The notes below the pieces were generated by a model. That model was not told the origin of the DNA. It did not search any database and was given only the letters and a program-made list of their open reading frames with translations. Below are positions 26,888 through 58,062 of a DNA stretch of 64,000 nt, one piece after another. Source of the DNA: Halofilum ochraceum (GTDB lineage Bacteria > Pseudomonadota > Gammaproteobacteria > XJ16 > Halofilaceae); contig NZ_LVEG02000001.1 of assembly GCF_001614315.2 (NCBI RefSeq), forward strand, positions 186,001 through 250,000, given 5' to 3'. Each line of letters opens with the position of its first letter. The first letter of the stretch is position 1. A program made the position numbers and the translations under genes.

Positions 26888-26901
26888 TTGATGTCGATCA
26901 A
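26888..26901. promoter_or_regulatory. FNR box, perfect consensus (moeA/hemN)
   Basis: TTGATGTCGATCAA, a full match to TTGAT-N4-ATCAA, 71 bp upstream of the moeA start and about 114 bp upstream of the hemN start. It could serve either gene. Confidence 0.8.
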
Positions 26902-26950: not shown

Positions 26951-27014
26951 TGTCCGGGTGGCTTTCCGGCGCGATACTCCGCAGCCGTTGCTTACCGGCT
27001 GCCGGAATCCGGAC

Positions 27015-28394
27015 ATGACATCCACCGTGGAATTCGATATCGAACTGGTCCAGCGCTACGACGTCGCGGGCCCGCGTTACACGTCCTATCCGACGGCACC
27101 GTGGTTCCGTGACGATTTCGGCCCGGAGGACTATCGCGCCCGTGCGGCGGAGACGGATCCGGAGCGGCCGCTGTCGCTGTATTTTCATATCCCGTTCTGC
27201 GCGACGCTGTGCTTCTACTGCGCCTGCAACAAGATCGTGACGAAGAACCGGGCGCACGCCACACCGTACCTTGAGCGGCTGGGCCGCGAGATCGAACTGC
27301 AGTCGGCACTGTTTCCGGGACGCCCGTCGGTGGATCAACTGCACTGGGGCGGCGGTACGCCGACGTTCCTGGATGACGGTCAGATCGAATGGCTGGTGGA
27401 ACGGATCCGCGCCGCCTGGCCGATGCGCGACGACGATGCCGGCGATTACTCGATCGAGCTCGATCCGCGTGCCGTTGGAACGGATACGATCCATCTCCTG
27501 CGGCGGCTCGGGTTCAACCGCGCCAGCCTTGGCGTGCAGGACCTCAACGAGGATGTGCAGAGAGCGGTCAACCGGATCCAGCCGGAGTCGGTCACGCGGG
27601 CAACCCTGGAGACCTGCCGCGAGGCCGGTTTCCGTTCCCTGAATATCGATCTGATCTACGGCCTCCCGCTGCAGACACTCGATACCTTCACCCGCACGAT
27701 CGAGCGGGTCATCGAACTCGGGCCGGACCGGATCGCGATCTACAACTACGCGCACCTGCCGCACCATTTTCCGCCGCAACGGCGGATCCGCGCGGAGGAT
27801 CTGCCATCAGCGGCGGAGCGCCTCGCGATCCTGCGGCGCGGGATCGAGCGCCTTACGGCCGCCGGCTATGTCTATATCGGCATGGATCATTTCGCGCGCG
27901 CGGACGACGAACTGGCGGTGGCCCAGAGTGCCGGCACGCTGACGCGCAATTTCCAGGGCTACAGCACGCATGGCGACTGCGACATCGTCGCCCATGGCAC
28001 GAGCGCGATCAGCATGTTCGGTGACTGCTACACGCAGCACTTCCGCGATCGCACGCTCTGGTCGGCCGCGCTGGACGGCGACGAAATCCCGGTCAATCGT
28101 GGATTGCAGCTGTCGCCGGATGATCGGCTGCGTCGGGATCTGATCACCCGTCTGATGTGCGATTTCGAACTCAATCTACCGGTATTCGAACAGCGCCACG
28201 GGATCGACTTTGCGCAAAAGTTCGCGCCCGAGTGCGCCGCGCTGGAACCGTTGATCGCCGACGGGCTCGTCGAATGGGAAGGCAGGCGCCTGCGGGTCAC
28301 ACCCGCGGGCCGCCTGCTCGTGCGCAACGTGGCCATGGTGTTCGACCGCTACCTGGAGCACGACCGGAACACCCGCTGGTCACGGGCGATCTGA
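27015..28394 (+). CDS. hemN: Oxygen-independent coproporphyrinogen III oxidase HemN
   Basis: A 459-aa radical-SAM enzyme for oxygen-independent heme synthesis. The SAM cluster motif CxxxCxxC is Cys62, Cys66, Cys69 in FCATLCFYCAC, followed by the HemN-typical fourth cysteine at 71. The N-terminal RYDVAGPRYTSYPTA and the later YIGMDHFARADDELA identify true HemN rather than HemW. The start MTSTVEFD is chosen over an upstream in-frame Met because family similarity begins there. FNR-type boxes upstream fit the known anaerobic control of hemN in pseudomonads. Heme supply is needed for NarI and other cytochromes. Confidence 0.95.
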   Translation: MTSTVEFDIELVQRYDVAGPRYTSYPTAPWFRDDFGPEDYRARAAETDPERPLSLYFHIPFCATLCFYCACNKIVTKNRAHATPYLERLGREIELQSALFPGRPSVDQLHWGGGTPTFLDDGQIEWLVERIRAAWPMRDDDAGDYSIELDPRAVGTDTIHLLRRLGFNRASLGVQDLNEDVQRAVNRIQPESVTRATLETCREAGFRSLNIDLIYGLPLQTLDTFTRTIERVIELGPDRIAIYNYAHLPHHFPPQRRIRAEDLPSAAERLAILRRGIERLTAAGYVYIGMDHFARADDELAVAQSAGTLTRNFQGYSTHGDCDIVAHGTSAISMFGDCYTQHFRDRTLWSAALDGDEIPVNRGLQLSPDDRLRRDLITRLMCDFELNLPVFEQRHGIDFAQKFAPECAALEPLIADGLVEWEGRRLRVTPAGRLLVRNVAMVFDRYLEHDRNTRWSRAI

Positions 28395-44978: not shown

Positions 44979-45551
44979 TCAATCGACCGGGCGCTGGGCC
45001 ACGAGCCGGGCGAGATCGCGCAGCCCACGATCGGTAGCGCCGGCGCGGTTTTCGTCGCGGTAGACCCGTACCCGAAGCGCGGGGAACAGTGCGAGCAGTT
45101 CGTTGTCGGCGAGCCGGTATTGGTCGTTCTGCGGCCCATGGCGGGTCAGTCCGGCACGCGTAAAGGTCTCGTAGAACAGCAGGCCCCCTGGGCGCAGCGC
45201 GGCGGCAAGCGCGGGGCAGAGGGCCCGGTCGAGGAAGCGGCTGACGACGATGACGTCGAAGGTGGATGCCGCGGGCGGGTGCTCGACCACGTCACGCACC
45301 TCGGCGGTCAGGGCGAGTCCTTCCACGCGCGCTTGCGCGGCGAGCCGGTCGATGGCCGTGGCGGCGCTGTCCCAGGCCCGGGTGATCAGACCGTGGCGTG
45401 CGAGATGGAGGGCGTTGCCGCCGAGTCCACAGGCGAGATCGAGGGCGTCGCCGCTTGCCGGCAGCAAGTGGTCGAAATCGGTGAGCACCGCGGCCGGCCG
45501 CGGCTGCGTGGCCGAGCGCTCACGGTATCGCGCTTCCCAGTCCGTCGCCAT
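44979..45551 (-). CDS. Class I SAM methyltransferase, TehB-like
   Basis: A 190-aa small methyltransferase. Motif I is ALDLACGLGGNALHLAR, followed by AAQARVEGLALTAEVRDVVE and FDVIVVSRFLDRAL. The short form with GLLFYETFT resembles TehB/tellurite-resistance-like and small thiol or metalloid methyltransferases, but the substrate is unknown. The ATG at 45551 gives the start MATDWEARYRE typical of this group. Confidence 0.8.
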   Translation of the reverse strand: MATDWEARYRERSATQPRPAAVLTDFDHLLPASGDALDLACGLGGNALHLARHGLITRAWDSAATAIDRLAAQARVEGLALTAEVRDVVEHPPAASTFDVIVVSRFLDRALCPALAAALRPGGLLFYETFTRAGLTRHGPQNDQYRLADNELLALFPALRVRVYRDENRAGATDRGLRDLARLVAQRPVD

Positions 45552-45656
45552 GATCGGCATTCCTGTGTCCGGGGCTACGCCTCGCGCTGGCGGGGCTGAA
45601 CGGGTACTTCGAATGCATTATGAAAGGGTGGCCATAGACCGACAACGGATTCAGTC

Positions 45657-45670
45657 TTGATGGCCATCAC
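45657..45670. promoter_or_regulatory. FNR-like box before the ubiU remnant
   Basis: TTGATGGCCATCAC, one base from consensus, 85 bp upstream of the ubiU start codon at 45756. UbiU expression is FNR-dependent in E. coli. Confidence 0.55.
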
Positions 45671-45755
45671 GGCCTCATGACGAGTTCCGGCTTACGCCGC
45701 GACTCCCGGATTGAAAAGGGCGTGTGGGGCGGCGACCGGGCACGAAATGGTCCCC

Positions 45756-45880
45756 ATGGAACTCGTCTGTCCCCCTGGGCAGTCCGCCCGCGCTGAAGGC
45801 GGCGGTCGAGGATGGAGCCGATTTCGTGTATGGCGGTTATCGCGACGGTACCCGGGCAGCGCGTTTGGCCGGCGTGCTGA
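45756..45880 (+). pseudogene. ubiU: ubiU (U32 peptidase-like) 5' remnant
   Basis: The frame opens MELVCP, then after a run of five C (45771-45775) the homology continues one frame over as GSPPALKAAVEDGADFVYGG and YRDGTRAARLAGV. This is the N-terminus of UbiU (YhbU), which with UbiV hydroxylates ubiquinone precursors without oxygen. After about residue 42 the similarity stops. The remnant is therefore frameshifted and truncated; no UbiV follows. A sequencing error could explain the shift but not the truncation. Confidence 0.7.
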
Positions 45881-45963
45881 TTGACCGGCATTGGTCGGCT
45901 GATCATCCGGCGCTGTACGAGGGTCGGTTCCGCGTCGAGGGCGCACTCGATCACGCCATCTGT

Positions 45964-46316
45964 TCAACCGCGGCCTCTACCACTGAGCGTATCCGGATCG
46001 CAGCGGCGGGCCGCGGCCAGGAGCACGGCGGAGCTGTCCGCGTGGATGGTGGTATCGGCTGGCGCCGTCGCCTTTACAATAAGGTCTCCGGTGGCATTCG
46101 CGGTGAACGGCCAGCGGACTTCGAGGTCGGTGATGGAAACCATGGGCACGCGACCGATGAGAAACTGGAATTCGCCCTCTATGAGATCTGTCGCGTGATT
46201 GTGCGGTTCAGAATAGTCAGCAACACGCTCTGGCCAAAGGGCTGCAGGCGCCGCCGGTGGATGGGTGAAGCGGCGGTGCGCAGTGCGGAGCGGACGGACG
46301 AGTGAATCACATGCAT
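45964..46316 (-). pseudogene. ubiT: ubiT (SCP2-like) broken gene
   Basis: From ATG 46316, with GGAGG at 46325-46329, the first frame reads RRRLQPFGQSVLLTILNRTI and stops after 42 codons. The adjacent frame continues EGEFQFLIGRVPMVSITDLE, then VRWPFTANATGDLIVKATAP, and HADSSAVLLAAARRCDPDTL. This is recognisably UbiT (YhbT), the SCP2-type partner of UbiU/UbiV in anaerobic ubiquinone synthesis. The expected QRRLxIEGD end is absent, and the gene stops at 45964. At least one frameshift and a 3' loss are needed. It faces the ubiU remnant, consistent with one deletion across a convergent pair. Confidence 0.7.
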
Positions 46317-46364
46317 GGTCATATCCTCCGGCCATGCAGTCTATCGGGGCCATGCCGCGCTGCA

Positions 46365-46378
46365 TTGATGGCCATCAA
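46365..46378. promoter_or_regulatory. FNR box, perfect consensus (ubiT remnant / oxidoreductase)
   Basis: TTGATGGCCATCAA, a full match. It lies 48 bp upstream of the ubiT remnant start and 39 bp upstream of the TTG start of the amino-acid oxidase-like gene, so its present target is uncertain. Confidence 0.75.
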
Positions 46379-46417: not shown

Positions 46418-47689
46418 TTGCACATCGTCGTGATCGGCGGCGGCCTCATGGGAACGGCTACGGCCTGGTTCCTGCTCGAGGCCGGCCATGAGGTGACACT
46501 GCTGGACCGCAACCCCGAACTGGCGGCCGAGGGCAGTTACGCCAACGGCGGCATCCTGCATGCCGGCCACGCTGCCCCGTGGAATTCGCCCGCGGTCGCC
46601 GGGCAGTTGCTGCGCTGGGTCGGGCGCGAGGCGTCGCCGCTTCTGCTTCGGCCCGGGCGGCTACCGTGGATGACAAGGTGGGGACTCGGCTTCCTGCGCC
46701 ACTGCAGGGCCCGTGACCATGAATACGTGAAGGCCCTGAACACGCGCCTGGCGCTGTACGGGCGTGACCGGATGGCGGAACTGCGTGCCGCCACCGGCAT
46801 CGAGTATGACGGTGACCAGCGCGGCAGTATGAAGATCTTCCGCGATCGGGCGGCGCTTGATGCGGCACAGTCGGCAGCCGAAGCCCTCGAACCGCTGGGG
46901 ATTCGGTCGCGCACCCTCGATGCCGACGGCGTGCTGGAACAGGAGCCGGCGCTCGCGGACACGCGTGCGTCGCTGGCCGGCGGCATCCATTTCCCGGATG
47001 ACGAATCCGGGGATGCCTGCCGGTTCGTGCGCGAACTGGGCCGCGTACTGGTCGAGCGGGGTGCGAGCGTGCGCACAGGTGAGTCCGTCTCGCGGATCGA
47101 GGGGGATCGCTCGGGGGTCCGGTCCGTGGTGACGGATCGCGACATCATCCAGGGCGATCGCTACGTTCTCGCCGCCGGTGTCGATGCGCCCGCGCTCGTG
47201 CGGCCGCTCGGCCTGCGCCTGCCGATCGAACCCGCCAAGGGATACTCCGTAACCTTGCCCGTCGATGACGGGGCCGATGTGCCCCGCGTGCCGCTGATCG
47301 ACGAGGCGCACCGGGTGGTGATCACGCGCCTCGGAGATCGGTTGCGGATCGCCGGGACCGTGGAGTTCACCGGCTTCGATCGGACGATCCGGCTATCCCG
47401 GGTCGAGGTCGTGCAGCGTCAGGGGCTTTCGAACCTGCCCTCGCTGGCATCGCGGCTCGATCCGGACAAGGTGGAGCCGTGGGCCTGTCTGCGGGCGGTC
47501 AGCATCGACGGGGCGCCTGTTCTCGGTGCCAGTCCGATCCCCAACCTGTTCCTGAATACCGCACCCGGCCATCTCGGATGGACATTCGCCGCCGGGGCGG
47601 GACAAGTCGTGGCTGATCAGGTCGGTGGGCGGGTCACCGGATTCGATCGGGCCGGGGAACTTTCCCCCCGGCGTTTCGGGCTCATCTGA
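46418..47689 (+). CDS. DadA-like FAD-dependent oxidoreductase
   Basis: A 423-aa FAD oxidoreductase of the D-amino-acid dehydrogenase (DadA) group. The FAD Rossmann motif is VIGGGLMGTATAW, with the conserved GSYANGGILHAGHAAPWNSP after it and the C-terminal TAPGHLGWTFAAGAG. The substrate is not fixed; glycine or D-amino acid oxidation are both seen in the family. The start is probably TTG at 46418, which has GGGGAG 8 bp upstream; an in-frame ATG at 46351 would add 22 residues that do not resemble the family and would lie inside the FNR box region. Confidence 0.85.
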   Translation: MHIVVIGGGLMGTATAWFLLEAGHEVTLLDRNPELAAEGSYANGGILHAGHAAPWNSPAVAGQLLRWVGREASPLLLRPGRLPWMTRWGLGFLRHCRARDHEYVKALNTRLALYGRDRMAELRAATGIEYDGDQRGSMKIFRDRAALDAAQSAAEALEPLGIRSRTLDADGVLEQEPALADTRASLAGGIHFPDDESGDACRFVRELGRVLVERGASVRTGESVSRIEGDRSGVRSVVTDRDIIQGDRYVLAAGVDAPALVRPLGLRLPIEPAKGYSVTLPVDDGADVPRVPLIDEAHRVVITRLGDRLRIAGTVEFTGFDRTIRLSRVEVVQRQGLSNLPSLASRLDPDKVEPWACLRAVSIDGAPVLGASPIPNLFLNTAPGHLGWTFAAGAGQVVADQVGGRVTGFDRAGELSPRRFGLI

Positions 47690-48142: not shown

Positions 48143-48156
48143 TTGATCCAGATCAA
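48143..48156. promoter_or_regulatory. FNR box 1 before narK1, perfect consensus
   Basis: TTGATCCAGATCAA, a full match. Its distance to box 2 is 39 bp. It also faces the small membrane protein gene on the other strand. Confidence 0.85.
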
Positions 48157-48181
48157 GAGCCGCGCAGAGAACGATCCGAAG

Positions 48182-48195
48182 TTGATTCTGATCAA
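48182..48195. promoter_or_regulatory. FNR box 2 before narK1, perfect consensus
   Basis: TTGATTCTGATCAA, a full match, 73 bp before the GTG start of narK1. A start site about 42 bp downstream would place it as a class II activator site. Confidence 0.85.
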
Positions 48196-51182: not shown

Positions 51183-54100
51183 ATGAGTCACTTTCTCGAT
51201 CGTCTGATGTTCTTCAAACGGGTGCAGGGCGAATTCGCCGACGGCCACGGCCGTACCACCCACGAGGACCGTACCTGGGAGAAGGCCTATCGCCAGCGCT
51301 GGCAGCACGACAAGGTCGTGCGCTCCACGCATGGCGTGAACTGCACCGGCGCCTGCTCCTGGAAGATCTACGTCAAGGACGGTCTGGTCACCTGGGAGAC
51401 CCAGCAGACCGACTACCCGCGCACGCGCCCGGATCTGCCGAACCACGAACCGCGCGGCTGCCCGCGCGGTGCCAGTTACTCCTGGTACATCTACAGCGCC
51501 GCGCGCCTGAAATACCCGATGGTGCGCGGGCGGCTGCTGAAGCTGTGGCGCGCCGCGCGCGAGCAGTACAGCGATCCGGTCGAGGCCTGGGCATCGATCG
51601 TCGACGACGCCGATGCGCGTCGCAGTTACCAGCGTCGGCGCGGTCTTGGCGGGATGGTTCGTTCAAGCTGGGACGAGATCCAGGAACTCGTCGCCGCGGC
51701 CAACGTGCACACGGTTCGCCGCCACGGCCCGGACCGGGTGATCGGGTTTTCCCCCATTCCGGCGATGTCGATGGTCTCCTACTCCGCCGGCTCACGCTAT
51801 CTGTCACTGATCGGCGGCGTCTGCCTGTCGTTCTACGACTGGTACTGCGACCTGCCGCCGAGCTCCCCCATGACCTGGGGTGAGCAGACCGACGTGCCCG
51901 AATCGGCCGACTGGTACAACAGCAAGTTCATCATGATGTGGGGTTCGAACGTGCCGCAGACGCGCACGCCAGACGCCCACTTCATGACCGAGGCGCGCTA
52001 CAACGGCACTAAGATCGTCGTCTGCTCACCGGACTACGCCGAGGCGACCAAGTTCGCGGACCTGTGGCTGTCGCCGAAGCAGGGCACTGATGCCGCGCTC
52101 GGAATGGCCATCGGCCACGTCATCCTCAAGGAATTCCACATCGACCGGCAGGAGGCGTACTTCCAGGACTACTGCCGGCGCTACACGGACATGCCGATGC
52201 TGGTCGCGCTGGAAGAGCGCGACGGCCGCAACGTGCCTGGGCGCTTCCTGCGCGCCAGCGATCTGACCGATGCCGCCGGTGAGCAGGCGAATGCCGAGTG
52301 GAAGACGCTGACGATCGATACGGATTCGGACAGTCCGGTGGTCCCCCAGGGATCGATCGGCTTCCGCTGGGACGAGAGCGGGCGCTGGAACCTCGAGGAA
52401 CGCGAGGGCGTGAACGGCGGGGAAATCAAACCGCGGCTGACGCTGCTCGATCACGGCGACGAGGTCGTACCGGTCGCTTTCCCGTACTTCGGCGGGGTGG
52501 AGCACGAGTTCTTCACCCACAACGAACAGACCGACGTGCTCGAGCGTCGCGTGCCGGTTCGGCGCATGACCCTGGCCGACGGCAGCAGCGTGCGCGTCGC
52601 GACCGTCTTCGATCTGATGGCGGCCCACTACGGGGTCGATCGTGGCCTCGGCGATGACGGCGTCGCGCAGAGTTATGAAGACGACGTGCCGTACACGCCG
52701 AAATGGCAGGAGTCGATCACCAGCGTGCCGGCCGATCACGTGATCAAGGTGGCACGGGAGTTCGCCGACAACGCCGCGAAAACGCAGGGCCGCTCGATGG
52801 TCATCCTGGGTGCCGGACTGAACCACTGGTACCACATGGACATGAACTACCGCGCCATCATCAACATGCTGGTGATGTGCGGGTGCATCGGCCAGAGCGG
52901 CGGCGGCTGGGCGCACTACGTCGGCCAGGAGAAGCTGCGGCCGCAGCTGGGCTGGCTGCCGGTGGCATTCGCCCTCGACTGGGTGCGGCCGCCGCGGCAG
53001 ATGAACGGCACCTCGTTCTGGTACGCCCACAGCGATCAGTGGCGTTACGAGAAACTGGAAGTCGAAGAGATCCTGTCGCCGCTCGCCGATCCGAGTGAAT
53101 GGTCGGGCAGCCTGATCGATTACAACGTCCGTGCCGAGCGCATGGGCTGGCTGCCGTCCGCGCCGCAGCTCAACCGCAACCCGCTCGATGTGGTACGCGA
53201 GGCGCGCGCGGCCGGTCGCGATCCGAAGGAATACGTGGTCGAGCAGCTGCAGTCCGGTGCGCTCGAGTTCGCGAACCAGGACCCGGATGCCGAGGAGAAC
53301 TGGCCGCGCAATCTGTTCGTGTGGCGCTCCAACCTGTTCGGTTCCTCCGGCAAGGGGCACGAATACCTGCTCAAGCACCTGCTCGGCACGAACGATGGCG
53401 TCCAGGGCAAGGAACTGGGTCCGCAGGGCCAGCAGAAGCCCGAGGAGGTCGCATGGCACGACCAGGCACCCGAGGGCAAGCTCGACCTGCTGGTGACGCT
53501 CGACTTCCGCATGTCGACGAGCTGCATGTACTCGGACGTGGTCCTGCCGACCGCCACCTGGTACGAAAAGGATGACCTGAACACCTCGGACATGCACCCG
53601 TTCATTCATCCGCTGTCCGAGGCGGTCAATCCGGCCTGGGAGGCGCGCAGCGACTGGGACATCTTCAAGGGGATCGCCAAGGCCTTCTCGAAGGTGGCCG
53701 CGCCCCATCTGGGTGTCGAGGAGGACCTGGTCACCCTGCCGCTGATGCACGACACGCCGGCGGAAATGGGGCAGGCGCTAGGCGTTTCCGACTGGACGAA
53801 GGGTGAGTGCGACCCGGTCCCGGGCCGCACCATGCCCAATCTGATCACCGTCGAGCGCGACTATCCGAGCACGTACCACCGCTTCACCTCGGTCGGACCG
53901 CTGCTGGAAAAACTCGGCAACGGCGGCAAGGGGATCAGCTGGAATACGGAGCGCGAGGTCGAACATCTCGGCGAGCTGCACGGGCGCCACTGGCTGGAGG
54001 AGGCCAGTTTCCGGCGGCCGCGCATGGAAACGGCGATCCAGGCGGCGGACACGATCATGTCGCTGGCGCCGGAGACCAACGGTGAAGTGGCGGTCAAGGC

Positions 54101-54935
54101 CTGGTCGGCGCTGGAGAAATTCACCGGGCGCGAGCACAGGCATCTCGCCGTGTCGAAAGAACACGAGAAGATCACCTTCCGGGACATCCAGTCCCAGCCG
54201 CGCAAGATCATCTCCTCGCCCACCTGGTCGGGCATCGAATCCGAGGAGGTCTGCTACAACGCCGGGTGGACCAACGTCCATGAACTGATTCCCTGGCGGA
54301 CCCTGACCGGGCGTCAGCAGTTCTACCAGGACCATACCTGGATGCGCGGTTTCGGCGAGGGCTTCGTGGCCTATCGCCCGCCGGTAAATACCAAGACCTG
54401 GCGCGATATCCACGGCCAGCACTCCAACGGCAATCCGGAGATCGTGCTGAACTGGATTACGCCGCACCAGAAGTGGGGCATCCACAGCACGTACACGGAC
54501 AACCTGTTGATGCTGACGCTGTCGCGGGGCGGGCCGATCATCTGGATTTCTGAAACCGATGCGGCGAAAGTCGGAATCGAGGACAACGACTGGATCGAGA
54601 CCTTCAACGCCAACGGGGCCGTCGTTGCGCGGGCCGTCGTCTCACAGCGTGTCCGTGAGGGCATGGCGATGATGTACCACGCGCAGGAGCGCATCGTGAA
54701 TACACCCGGGTCGGAGATCACCGGGGCCCGCGGCGGTATCCACAACTCGGTGACACGTGCGGTGGTGAAGCCGACGCACATGATCGGGGGGTACGCCCAG
54801 CAGAGCTACGGCTTCAACTACTACGGCACGGTCGGTTCGAACCGTGACGAATTCGTCGTCGTGCGCAAGATGGACAAGGTCGATTGGCTCGAGGGCGATG
54901 ACGAAAGCATCCTCACGCAGGAGTACACGCGATGA
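51183..54935 (+). CDS. narG: Respiratory nitrate reductase alpha subunit NarG
   Basis: A 1250-aa membrane-bound, cytoplasm-facing molybdoenzyme reducing nitrate to nitrite. The FS0 cluster ligands are His50, Cys54, Cys58 and Cys93, and the Mo ligand is Asp223 in FYDWYCDLPPSSP, the same positions as in E. coli NarG. No twin-arginine signal is present, so it stays in the cytoplasm as in the classic type. It starts at 51183 with GGAG; an upstream open frame is chance. narH overlaps by four bases. Confidence 0.97.
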   Translation: MSHFLDRLMFFKRVQGEFADGHGRTTHEDRTWEKAYRQRWQHDKVVRSTHGVNCTGACSWKIYVKDGLVTWETQQTDYPRTRPDLPNHEPRGCPRGASYSWYIYSAARLKYPMVRGRLLKLWRAAREQYSDPVEAWASIVDDADARRSYQRRRGLGGMVRSSWDEIQELVAAANVHTVRRHGPDRVIGFSPIPAMSMVSYSAGSRYLSLIGGVCLSFYDWYCDLPPSSPMTWGEQTDVPESADWYNSKFIMMWGSNVPQTRTPDAHFMTEARYNGTKIVVCSPDYAEATKFADLWLSPKQGTDAALGMAIGHVILKEFHIDRQEAYFQDYCRRYTDMPMLVALEERDGRNVPGRFLRASDLTDAAGEQANAEWKTLTIDTDSDSPVVPQGSIGFRWDESGRWNLEEREGVNGGEIKPRLTLLDHGDEVVPVAFPYFGGVEHEFFTHNEQTDVLERRVPVRRMTLADGSSVRVATVFDLMAAHYGVDRGLGDDGVAQSYEDDVPYTPKWQESITSVPADHVIKVAREFADNAAKTQGRSMVILGAGLNHWYHMDMNYRAIINMLVMCGCIGQSGGGWAHYVGQEKLRPQLGWLPVAFALDWVRPPRQMNGTSFWYAHSDQWRYEKLEVEEILSPLADPSEWSGSLIDYNVRAERMGWLPSAPQLNRNPLDVVREARAAGRDPKEYVVEQLQSGALEFANQDPDAEENWPRNLFVWRSNLFGSSGKGHEYLLKHLLGTNDGVQGKELGPQGQQKPEEVAWHDQAPEGKLDLLVTLDFRMSTSCMYSDVVLPTATWYEKDDLNTSDMHPFIHPLSEAVNPAWEARSDWDIFKGIAKAFSKVAAPHLGVEEDLVTLPLMHDTPAEMGQALGVSDWTKGECDPVPGRTMPNLITVERDYPSTYHRFTSVGPLLEKLGNGGKGISWNTEREVEHLGELHGRHWLEEASFRRPRMETAIQAADTIMSLAPETNGEVAVKAWSALEKFTGREHRHLAVSKEHEKITFRDIQSQPRKIISSPTWSGIESEEVCYNAGWTNVHELIPWRTLTGRQQFYQDHTWMRGFGEGFVAYRPPVNTKTWRDIHGQHSNGNPEIVLNWITPHQKWGIHSTYTDNLLMLTLSRGGPIIWISETDAAKVGIEDNDWIETFNANGAVVARAVVSQRVREGMAMMYHAQERIVNTPGSEITGARGGIHNSVTRAVVKPTHMIGGYAQQSYGFNYYGTVGSNRDEFVVVRKMDKVDWLEGDDESILTQEYTR

Positions 54936-56479
54936 AGATCCGCGCACAGATCGGCAAGGTCCTCAATCTGGACAAATGCATCGGCTGCCATACCTGCTCG
55001 GTGACCTGCAAAAACGTCTGGACCTCGCGCGAGGGCATGGAATACGCGTGGTTCAACAACGTCGAGACAAAGCCGGGCATCGGCTATCCGAAGGACTGGG
55101 AGAACCAGGACCGCTGGAAAGGCGGCTGGGTACGTTCGGGGAAGGACGACATCGTGCCGAAGCAGGGCGGCAAATGGCGCCTGCTCGCCAAGATCTTCGC
55201 CAACCCGCATCTGCCGGAGATCGACGACTACTACGAGCCGTTCAACTTCGACTACCAGCGGCTGCAGAACGCGCCCGACTCAAAGGCGCAGCCGACGGCC
55301 AAGCCGTACTCGGCCATTACCGGCAAGCCGATGGAAAAGATCGAGTGGGGCCCGAACTGGGAAGAGATCCTCGGCGGCGAGTTCTCCAAGCGCTCGCAGG
55401 ACTACAACTTCGAGGGCATCCAGAAGGAGATGTACGGCCAGTTCGAGAACACTTTCATGATGTACCTGCCGCGGCTGTGTGAGCACTGCCTCAATCCGAC
55501 CTGCGTGGCGAGCTGCCCGTCCGGCGCGATCTATAAGCGCGAGGAGGATGGCATCGTCCTGATCGACCAGGACAAGTGCCGCGGCTGGCGCATGTGCATC
55601 TCGGGCTGCCCGTACAAGAAGATCTACTACAACTGGCAGTCCGGCAAGTCGGAGAAGTGCACCTTCTGCTATCCGCGCATCGAGGCGGGTCAGCCGACAG
55701 TGTGTTCGGAGACGTGTGTGGGCCGTATCCGCTATCTCGGCGTGCTGCTGTATGACGCCGACCGGATCAAGGAAGCGGCCAGCGTCCCCAACGAAAAGGA
55801 TCTCTACGAGGCGCAGCTCGACATCTTCCTCGATCCGAACGATCCCGAGGTACAGCGCCAGGCGCGGGCCGACGGCGTGCCGGATTCCTGGATCGAGGCG
55901 GCTCAGCGCTCGCCGGTCTACAAGATGGCGATGGACTGGAAGGTCGCCTTCCCGCTGCACCCGGAATACCGGACGCTGCCGATGGTCTGGTATGTACCGC
56001 CGCTGTCGCCGATCCAGTCGGCCGCGGATACCGGGCAGGTCGGTCTCGACGGCCTGATCCCGAACGTCGAGTCGCTGCGCATTCCGGTGCGCTACCTCTC
56101 GAACATGTTGACCGCGGGCGATGATCGCCCGGTGATCGACGGTCTCAAGCGGATGCTCGCCATGCGGGTGTTCAAGCGTGGCCAGACCGTCGACGGCGTC
56201 GAGAACGAAGAGGTGCTCGAACAGGTCGGCCTGAATCGCCAGCAGCTCGAGGATATGTACCAGACCATGGCGATCGCCAACTACGAGGACCGGTTCGTGA
56301 TCCCGACCAATCATCGTGAGCTCTCGACGGAGGATGCCTACGGCGAACGCTCCGGCTGCGGGTTCAGTTTCGGCGATGGCTGTCACACGCATGGCACGAC
56401 CACGCGCGTGAACCTGTTCGGTAGCAAGAGCCCGCGCCAGCGCGAGCACAAGCCGCCGACGATCGAGGAGAACAAATGA
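54932..56479 (+). CDS. narH: Nitrate reductase beta subunit NarH
   Basis: A 515-aa iron-sulfur subunit carrying electrons from NarI to NarG. Cluster motifs in order are CIGCHTCSVTC, CEHCLNPTCVASCPSG, CRGWRMCISGCP and CTFCYPRIEAG/CSETC. The tryptophan in CRGWRMC marks the [3Fe-4S] site, as in E. coli. The start overlaps narG and the stop overlaps narJ, both by ATGA, so the subunits are translationally coupled. Confidence 0.97.
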   Translation: MKIRAQIGKVLNLDKCIGCHTCSVTCKNVWTSREGMEYAWFNNVETKPGIGYPKDWENQDRWKGGWVRSGKDDIVPKQGGKWRLLAKIFANPHLPEIDDYYEPFNFDYQRLQNAPDSKAQPTAKPYSAITGKPMEKIEWGPNWEEILGGEFSKRSQDYNFEGIQKEMYGQFENTFMMYLPRLCEHCLNPTCVASCPSGAIYKREEDGIVLIDQDKCRGWRMCISGCPYKKIYYNWQSGKSEKCTFCYPRIEAGQPTVCSETCVGRIRYLGVLLYDADRIKEAASVPNEKDLYEAQLDIFLDPNDPEVQRQARADGVPDSWIEAAQRSPVYKMAMDWKVAFPLHPEYRTLPMVWYVPPLSPIQSAADTGQVGLDGLIPNVESLRIPVRYLSNMLTAGDDRPVIDGLKRMLAMRVFKRGQTVDGVENEEVLEQVGLNRQQLEDMYQTMAIANYEDRFVIPTNHRELSTEDAYGERSGCGFSFGDGCHTHGTTTRVNLFGSKSPRQREHKPPTIEENK

Positions 56480-57198
56480 TGGCGGCCGACCGGCAATCGA
56501 GTTTCGGGCCGTGCCTGCAGGCGCTTTCGGTCCTGCTGCATTACCCGCAGCAGGACACCGTCGACAATGCCGACGCCATCGCCGACGTGCTGGCGGCGAG
56601 GCCCGAGTTCCCGGCGGACGACCGAGCCGAGCTGGAGCGGTTCATCCACCGTCTGCGAAGGGCCGAGCTGCTGCACCAGCAGGCCGGTTACGTCGAGACC
56701 TTCGATCGAAGCAAGAAGGTCTCGCTGTATCTCTTCGAGCACGTCCATGGCGAGTCGCGCGATCGCGGTCCGGCCATGGTTGAACTGCGCATGGCCTATC
56801 GGGAGCAGGGGCTGGATATCGCGGCGAATGAACTGCCGGATTATCTGCCGATGTTCCTGGAGTTCTGCGCCCAGCTCCCGGATGCCGACGCCTGCGCATG
56901 GCTGGAGGACGTCAGCCACATCCTGCAGGAGATCCATGTCCGCCTGTACCAGCGCGACAGCCGTTATGCGCTGCCGTTCCGGCTGCTGCTGCGGCTGGTC
57001 GATGTGGAGCCCTGGCCGGCGGAGCTGGTCGAGGAAACGAAGGAGGAGAAACGCGACGATACCAGGGAAGCGATCGACAGCGTCTGGTGCGAAGCGCCGG
57101 TTACGTTCGAGGCCGGCTCCGCGCTCGGCGGTGGCTGCAGCGGTGGGTCGGGTACGCAGTCCGGTAACGCCGCGGGCTATGGCGCCGGTCGGGCATAG
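56476..57198 (+). CDS. narJ: Nitrate reductase assembly chaperone NarJ
   Basis: A 240-aa NarJ/TorD-family chaperone that holds NarG for cofactor insertion and membrane docking. Family blocks are LHYPQQDTV, ETFDRSKKVSLYLFEHVHGE and SRDRGPAMVELRMAYREQG. The C-terminus is a Gly/Ser-rich tail (GGGCSGGSGTQSGN). The stop codon is immediately followed by a 165-bp palindromic element, an unusual break in the operon before narI. Confidence 0.95.
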   Translation: MMAADRQSSFGPCLQALSVLLHYPQQDTVDNADAIADVLAARPEFPADDRAELERFIHRLRRAELLHQQAGYVETFDRSKKVSLYLFEHVHGESRDRGPAMVELRMAYREQGLDIAANELPDYLPMFLEFCAQLPDADACAWLEDVSHILQEIHVRLYQRDSRYALPFRLLLRLVDVEPWPAELVEETKEEKRDDTREAIDSVWCEAPVTFEAGSALGGGCSGGSGTQSGNAAGYGAGRA

Positions 57199-57375: not shown

Positions 57376-58062
57376 ATGATGGAAACCCTGCACGTATTTG
57401 CTTTTGAATACTATGTCTACGTGGCCGGCACGGTGTTCCTGCTGGGCAGCCTCGTCCGGTTCGACATGAGCCAGTACACCTGGAAGACGAATTCCAGCCA
57501 GCTGCTGGACAACTCGATGAAATTCCAGGTGGGCAGCGTGCTGTTCCACGCCGGCGTCCTGTTCCTGCTGTTCGGTCACCTGATCGGTCTGTTGATGCCG
57601 CACTGGATGTACCCGTACGTCGGCCTGACGCCCGGTTCGAAACAGATCCTCGCGATCGTCTCCGGCGGTATCGCGGGGCTTGCGGCGCTGGTGGGCGGTG
57701 CCATCCTGCTGCACCGGCGGATCTTCCATCCCCGCGTGCGGGCGCATTCGACGCGTAACGATATCTTCATTCTCGTGCTGCTCTACATCCAGCTGATCCT
57801 CGGCATGCTGACGATCCCGATCTCCATGGGGCATCTGGATGGCGGCACGATGATCAAGCTGTCCGACTGGGCGCAGCATGTGCTGACGTTCCGCGGCGGT
57901 TCGGAGTACATCACGGACGTGCACTGGATCTTCAAGCTGCATCTGTTCCTGGGCGTAACGACGTTCCTGGTTTTCCCGTTCACGCGCCTGGTCCATATCT
58001 GGAGCCTGCCGGCGACCTATATCGCCCGCCAGTACCAGATCGTGCGGCAGCGGTCGTCATGA
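57376..58062 (+). CDS. narI: Nitrate reductase gamma subunit NarI
   Basis: A 228-aa membrane diheme cytochrome b that takes electrons from quinol to NarH. Five membrane segments are predicted, and conserved histidines lie in VLFHAGVLFLLFGHLIGL and in the C-terminal WIFKLHLFLGV. The N-terminus MMETLHVFAFEYYVYVAGTV is typical. ATG at 57376 is followed by a second ATG. The stop overlaps the ppiC start by four bases. It is separated from narJ by the palindromic element. Confidence 0.96.
   Translation: MMETLHVFAFEYYVYVAGTVFLLGSLVRFDMSQYTWKTNSSQLLDNSMKFQVGSVLFHAGVLFLLFGHLIGLLMPHWMYPYVGLTPGSKQILAIVSGGIAGLAALVGGAILLHRRIFHPRVRAHSTRNDIFILVLLYIQLILGMLTIPISMGHLDGGTMIKLSDWAQHVLTFRGGSEYITDVHWIFKLHLFLGVTTFLVFPFTRLVHIWSLPATYIARQYQIVRQRSS

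Follow-up and report, generated by a model that had tools for sequence, protein, structure and literature searches.

The window analysed here, a stretch of 64,000 nucleotides from Halofilum ochraceum, contains between positions 45657 and 46378 what is left of a ubiU-ubiV / ubiT cluster with converging genes, as revealed by alignments and profiles. This fossil lies under surviving FNR boxes and beside an intact narGHJI operon, in a genome in which no U32/UbiV gene and no marker of menaquinone synthesis was found. We consider it probable that the cluster was once activated by FNR, that the nitrate reductase was kept, and that ubiquinone, by which this enzyme would be fed, is now made only by the O2-dependent hydroxylases.

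The ubiU relic comprises two pieces (Table 1). Behind the ATG at 45756 the reading frame breaks at codon ~6-8 and the similarity to UbiU resumes in the next frame; the resulting piece (45772-45858) aligns with all ten intact UbiU proteins from relatives with scores of 77-92, which none of 500 shuffles reached in any of the cases, and finds its relatives in tblastn with E-values down to 3e-11. An internal deletion of ~176 codons joins it to a second piece (45862-45960), which was missing from the first list of features in this region, and whose score against each of the ten intact proteins was again reached by none of 500 shuffles. The similarity of both pieces to 10/10 intact homologs in pairwise alignments ties the relic to UbiU (NF047963, quinone_UbiU). 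A full-length UbiU frame with the 4Fe-4S cysteines is absent, as residues ~35-210 and those from 247 to the end are missing, and the Cys of the relatives' (A/T)LCKGRF motif, which we take to be a ligand of the 4Fe-4S cluster, is replaced in the relic (ALYEGRF). In alignments with intact UbiU, the signal after position 45972 is at the noise level. A continuation of UbiU past this point, hinted at by some tblastn alignments, was considered and rejected: the stretch scores as noise and runs antisense to ubiT. Alignment detected no UbiV-like signal (family NF047965) in the middle piece of the relic.

The ubiT relic matches the NCBIfam profile NF047962 (SCP2_dom_UbiT) with 42.9 bits and an E-value of 5.4e-11 over positions 22-91 of 120, just below the cut-off of 46.9 that is set for the whole protein, of which only a truncated part is left here. 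It is therefore recognized by the profile of UbiT itself, beyond the generic match to the Pfam SCP2 domain (E-value 0.0025). Compared with eight intact UbiT proteins, its score was reached by none of 500 shuffles in five cases, and was at the noise level in the other three. There is no uninterrupted full-length ubiT frame, owing to a frameshift at ~46181-46197 and the loss of everything past residue ~122; beyond 45985, alignments of all three frames with the C-terminus of intact UbiT are at the noise level. The 45 codons of the presumed start frame (46316-46179) exhibit no significant alignment with the N-termini of UbiT, and the ATG at 46316 is put forward as the probable start on the basis of its ribosome-binding site, its spacing from the FNR box and its conservation in a congeneric genome. 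In class II FNR promoters, TTGATNNNNATCAA is followed by a -10 element ~30 nt downstream. A -10-like ATAGAC, read by eye and not picked up by a sigma-70 scan, is found ~30 nt downstream of the centre of the box at 46365, so that the ubiT-side box is predicted to fit the layout of an FNR-regulated promoter.

Table 1. Features of the ubi relic and its surroundings in the window (columns: feature; positions; strand, sequence or starts; remarks)
SAM-dependent methyltransferase-like gene (named by eye)	44979..45560	-	left flank, conserved in G001
FNR-type box before ubiU relic	45657..45670	TTGATGGCCATCAC, 1 mismatch	centre ~92 nt upstream of ubiU ATG
ubiU relic, first codons, original frame	45756..45776	+	ATG at 45756; frameshift at codon ~6-8
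ubiU relic, residues ~6-34, shifted frame	45772..45858	+	alignment and tblastn
ubiU relic, residues ~211-246	45862..45960	+	directly behind first piece, same frame
Deletion junction	45961..45984		ubiU from residue ~247, whole ubiV and ubiT from residue ~123 missing
ubiT relic, SCP2 core, residues ~48/59-122	45985..46188	-	NF047962, Pfam SCP2, shuffles
Presumed ubiT start frame	46179..46316	-	ATG 46316, ribosome-binding site GGAGGA; 45 codons, then stop
Perfect FNR box	46365..46378	TTGATGGCCATCAA	centre ~55 nt upstream of presumed ubiT ATG
D-amino acid dehydrogenase-like gene (dadA-like)	46418..47689	+	TTG start; NF001933, 392.2 bits; right flank, conserved in G001
Two perfect FNR boxes before tandem narK	48143..48195	starts 48143, 48182	39 nt apart
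narG, intact	51183..54935	+	TIGR01580, 2221 bits
narH, intact	54932..56479	+	TIGR01660, 976 bits
narJ, intact	56476..57198	+	TIGR00684, 131.9 bits
narI, intact	57376..58062	+	TIGR00351, 257.8 bits

The lesions thus comprise no fewer than two frameshifts and two deletions, of which one lies within ubiU and the other removed, as a single stretch, the whole of ubiV together with the ends of ubiU and of ubiT. An earlier note on this DNA, made from its letters, had described a frameshifted ubiU start and a frameshifted, truncated ubiT between an FNR-like box (45657) and a perfect one (46365), and alignment with intact orthologs bears out this observation of decayed genes under FNR-type boxes. Its statement that the 3' parts were lost holds for the ends of both genes and needs to be amended for ubiU, which suffered an internal deletion as well and retained the piece of residues ~211-246. 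The genes had also been said to lie head-to-head; in fact ubiU and ubiT converge, tail to tail.

Intact counterparts of such a cluster are found in relatives. Among eleven UbiU-bearing loci (L042-L052), UbiT was found within nine, and in four of these (L042, L044, L048, L051) ubiU-ubiV and ubiT are intact and convergent, with ~35-110 bp between the matches, while in L045 the convergent ubi genes are separated by 2.6 kb. L042 resembles the window in its regulatory sites: its UbiT match is preceded at 60 nt by a perfect FNR box, and its UbiU match at 65 nt by a box with a single mismatch. Altogether, FNR boxes with no or one mismatch were detected in 5 of 20 upstream regions of relatives, one of the five at 420 nt from the match, all these distances being approximate because the regions were taken from the ends of the matches. 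According to the available part of a published survey, FNR sites accompany 87% of ubiTUV triplets, and ubiT may be located upstream or downstream, on either strand (PMC11707229).

The family was represented by three draft genomes, all from one genus: that of the window (G000), G001 and G002 (35, 90 and 200 contigs, respectively). The window and G001 share the gene order methyltransferase - relic - dadA-like - narK - narK - narG - narI. Of ubiU, G001 has kept ~3 codons along with the region before them (blastn E-value 3e-24), and of ubiT likewise ~27 codons with their upstream region (2e-38), and the middles of both genes are gone. The relic was thus compared in G000 and G001; in G002, narG is located on a contig of just 4.6 kb, and the dadA-like gene occurs in a different context. 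Between the methyltransferase gene and the relic, G001 carries on the minus strand an ORF resembling 5-formyl-THF cyclo-ligase (recognized by eye; L035 2123-2788), which is absent from the window.

The two promoters have not fared equally. In the pairwise alignment, G001 retains each of the ten bases that define the box before ubiT, whereas its box before ubiU has an eroded left half-site. Over the block 46250-46378 the two genomes agree at 104 of 129 positions (81%), compared with 114/159 (72%) next to ubiU and 363/588 (62%) at the fourfold sites of three genes nearby (81/111, 144/234 and 138/243 singly), which gives binomial P-values of 0.016 and 3e-6 against 72% and 62%, respectively, for a block whose limits were picked after viewing the alignment and in which only two sequences were compared. 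One may therefore ask if the ubiT promoter survives for another role, either in the production of an FNR-driven short RNA or as a promoter captured by the downstream minus-strand genes, that is the methyltransferase gene and, in G001, the formyl-THF cyclo-ligase-like gene; no terminator-like site was found between the promoter and these genes. We regard this as unlikely. With the limits chosen post hoc and two sequences at hand, the difference between 72% and 81% is weak, no RNA family scores above its gathering threshold in the block (the one match, with an E-value of 0.53, is at chance level), and the block doubles as the upstream region of dadA. With its limits set post hoc and its second role before dadA, this block provides no more than a lead to a surviving switch, and its retention is the one mildly odd feature of the locus. 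A bolder version, according to which selection has maintained the ubiT leader with its FNR promoter in two species, where they would now produce an RNA under FNR control or drive the minus-strand neighbours while nitrate is respired with ubiquinone made only under oxygen, appears clearly unlikely to us.

We return to the preferred reading, a lost pathway with a retained nitrate reductase, which raises the question of where the quinone comes from. The earlier note had left three options: another copy of the genes elsewhere, the use of menaquinone, or dependence on trace oxygen. The first two find no support in the genus. No match to the U32 family was detected in any of the three genomes, and none to UbiV in G000 or G001. 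A search for UbiT by its SCP2 domain, which covered the own genome, returned a single ORF, which gave no NCBIfam match at the threshold used; because it is flanked by UbiE-like and UbiB-like ORFs (recognized by eye), it is predicted to be UbiJ-like, in a cluster of the ubiE/ubiJ/ubiB type. Menaquinone was judged from two markers, MenD and the MqnA-type protein (PF02621). None of the three genomes has MenD above the cut-off (G000 and G001 contain matches of ~91-92 bits below it, which we judge to be acetolactate-synthase-like, and G002 none) and none has a PF02621 protein. O2-dependent hydroxylases of the Ubi-OHase family (TIGR01988) are represented by two proteins in G000, both intact, two in G001 and three matches in G002. 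With two intact Ubi-OHases, and with neither a second copy nor menaquinone markers found, both of these options are disfavoured and aerobically made ubiquinone remains.

The same combination occurs elsewhere in the class, for which 185 genomes were sampled. Across this sample narG and the O2-independent pathway do go together, though loosely: narG is present in 30 genomes, UbiV in 49 and both in 18 (odds ratio 6.0, Fisher P 2e-5). Ten of the 26 narG genomes of good quality (at least 90% complete, at most 5% contaminated) have no UbiV, and among these ten MenD exceeds the cut-off only in G064, and PF02621 in none. Genomes with narG and without UbiV and the menaquinone markers number 9/26, two of the nine being from this genus (11/30 in the full set, where G072 and G102 are incomplete and narG of G012 is split), so a nitrate reductase without UbiTUV is no rarity there. 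It is quite improbable, in our opinion, that members of the genus produce ubiquinone or some other quinone without O2 along a route invisible to these markers, such as unknown hydroxylases or unusual menaquinone genes. The presence of narG, intact in all three genomes of the genus, and the nine genomes mentioned above do call for an explanation, but no candidate gene for such a route was found, the window offers no pointer to one, and O2-dependent synthesis suffices for microaerobic life. Two further observations concern relatives in the class. A UbiV match in G100 (C243:2476-3300) contains two in-frame TGA codons and represents either a decaying ubiV or recoded TGA. G122, which has 6% contamination and two UbiV, encodes two MqnA/MqnD-type proteins (C45:45667-48308; PF02621, 252.6 and 164.1 bits), a case of contamination or an exception, given that in the accessible part of PMC11707229 no futalosine pathway is reported for Pseudomonadota.

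The nitrate respiration locus had been called intact, and indeed narG, narH, narJ and narI each retain their full length. The boxes around it appear to belong to a surviving regulon. The pair before narK recurs in G001 (C8:62206 and 62245) with the same spacing. Perfect FNR boxes number 9 in G000, 13 in G001 and 10 in G002, against 1, 0 and 0 for a backwards control pattern and 0.28 expected from base composition in the own genome, where they precede hemN (26888), the ubiT relic (46365), narK (48143, 48182), cydA (C4) and ccoN (C14), and are otherwise found near an Na+/H+ antiporter, near an HTH regulator and in one unassigned place. Matches to a consensus by themselves prove nothing, yet with such an excess over the control, and with boxes standing before hemN, narK, cydA, ccoN and the start of ubiT, it is hardly credible that they are chance palindromes. 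The box of hemN (26888-26901) lies just upstream of this gene for the O2-independent coproporphyrinogen III oxidase (26997-28391), and its 14 bases are found once in G001, at C8:50869. In G002, a perfect box with a GGCC core like that of the ubiT box (C139:417-430, L086) has an archease-like ORF on one side and a lipoprotein-like one on the other (both named by eye), and no ubi relic was detected beside it. The oxidases of the own genome comprise an aa3 type in addition to FNR-boxed cbb3 and bd types. Its two COX1-family proteins, an aa3-type CtaD-like protein and the cbb3-type CcoN, are both oxidases, and therefore no nitric oxide reductase of the COX1 family was found in it. From the surviving members we infer a regulon for low-oxygen rather than oxygen-free conditions.

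There is practically no chance that the genes are really intact and have been broken by sequencing or assembly errors, for although two frameshifts are of the kind that base-calling errors produce, the ~176 codons inside ubiU, the entire ubiV gene and the terminal parts of both ubiU and ubiT are absent rather than shifted, a U32 gene is nowhere to be found in the three genomes of the genus, the locus sits within a contig of 736 kb, and the loss cannot be attributed to such errors because the congeneric G001 shows the same locus even shorter.

On this basis the following history may be proposed. The ancestral locus would have been an FNR-activated, convergent ubiU-ubiV / ubiT cluster that provided the O2-independent pathway to ubiquinone in a lineage which keeps nitrate reductase. 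At least two deletions and two frameshifts would then have abolished the pathway, with G001 of the same genus losing still more of the locus, so that ubiquinone would now be made by the O2-dependent hydroxylases only. The surviving FNR regulon (the narK boxes, hemN, cydA and ccoN) would suit life at low oxygen, and the nitrate reductase may draw on ubiquinol formed at times when some O2 was present. The interpretation of the earlier note is supported overall, and an ordinary, well-preserved loss of a pathway is the best account of the locus. It is likely that nitrate respiration in these bacteria depends on ubiquinone made with O2, in which case only trace O2 or inherited ubiquinone would sustain it. 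Pseudomonas aeruginosa can no longer respire nitrate once ubiT or ubiU-ubiV is lost, according to work cited in the part of PMC6747719 available to us. A genus which keeps narG in all three genomes with this pathway dead and no menaquinone marker therefore poses the question of which quinone feeds its nitrate reductase, and it can be tested whether such bacteria confine nitrate respiration to places with residual oxygen. More generally, the presence of narG should not be read as the ability to live without oxygen.

Compared with the known ubiUV/ubiT cluster (UbiU NF047963, UbiV NF047965, UbiT NF047962), the locus shares the protein similarity of both relics, an FNR box ahead of each of the two genes and a convergent arrangement like that of the four tight loci of relatives, and differs in that its copy is broken by deletions and frameshifts and ubiV is absent. 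The tight convergent order itself is apparently not among the main adjacent ubiTUV architectures in the main text of PMC11707229. In P. aeruginosa, ubiUVT are controlled by Anr, a regulator of the FNR family, and Anr also drives a short RNA, SicX, in the same physiology, as far as the available text of PMC10247376 goes. The control by an FNR-type regulator is thus common to both systems; no relative of SicX was found here, and this RNA provides only an idea for the role of the surviving ubiT leader. The titles and abstract openings of the open-access literature that was searched name no decayed ubiTUV beside nar. Gene loss in the O2-independent pathway as such is already published: in the accessible part of PMC11707229, ubiTUV are reported to have been lost in Pseudomonadota that retain the O2-dependent pathway, as appears to be the case here. 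The loss in the window differs from these in that, in the absence of menaquinone markers, the fossils of the genes and their promoter are still in place beside an intact nar operon.
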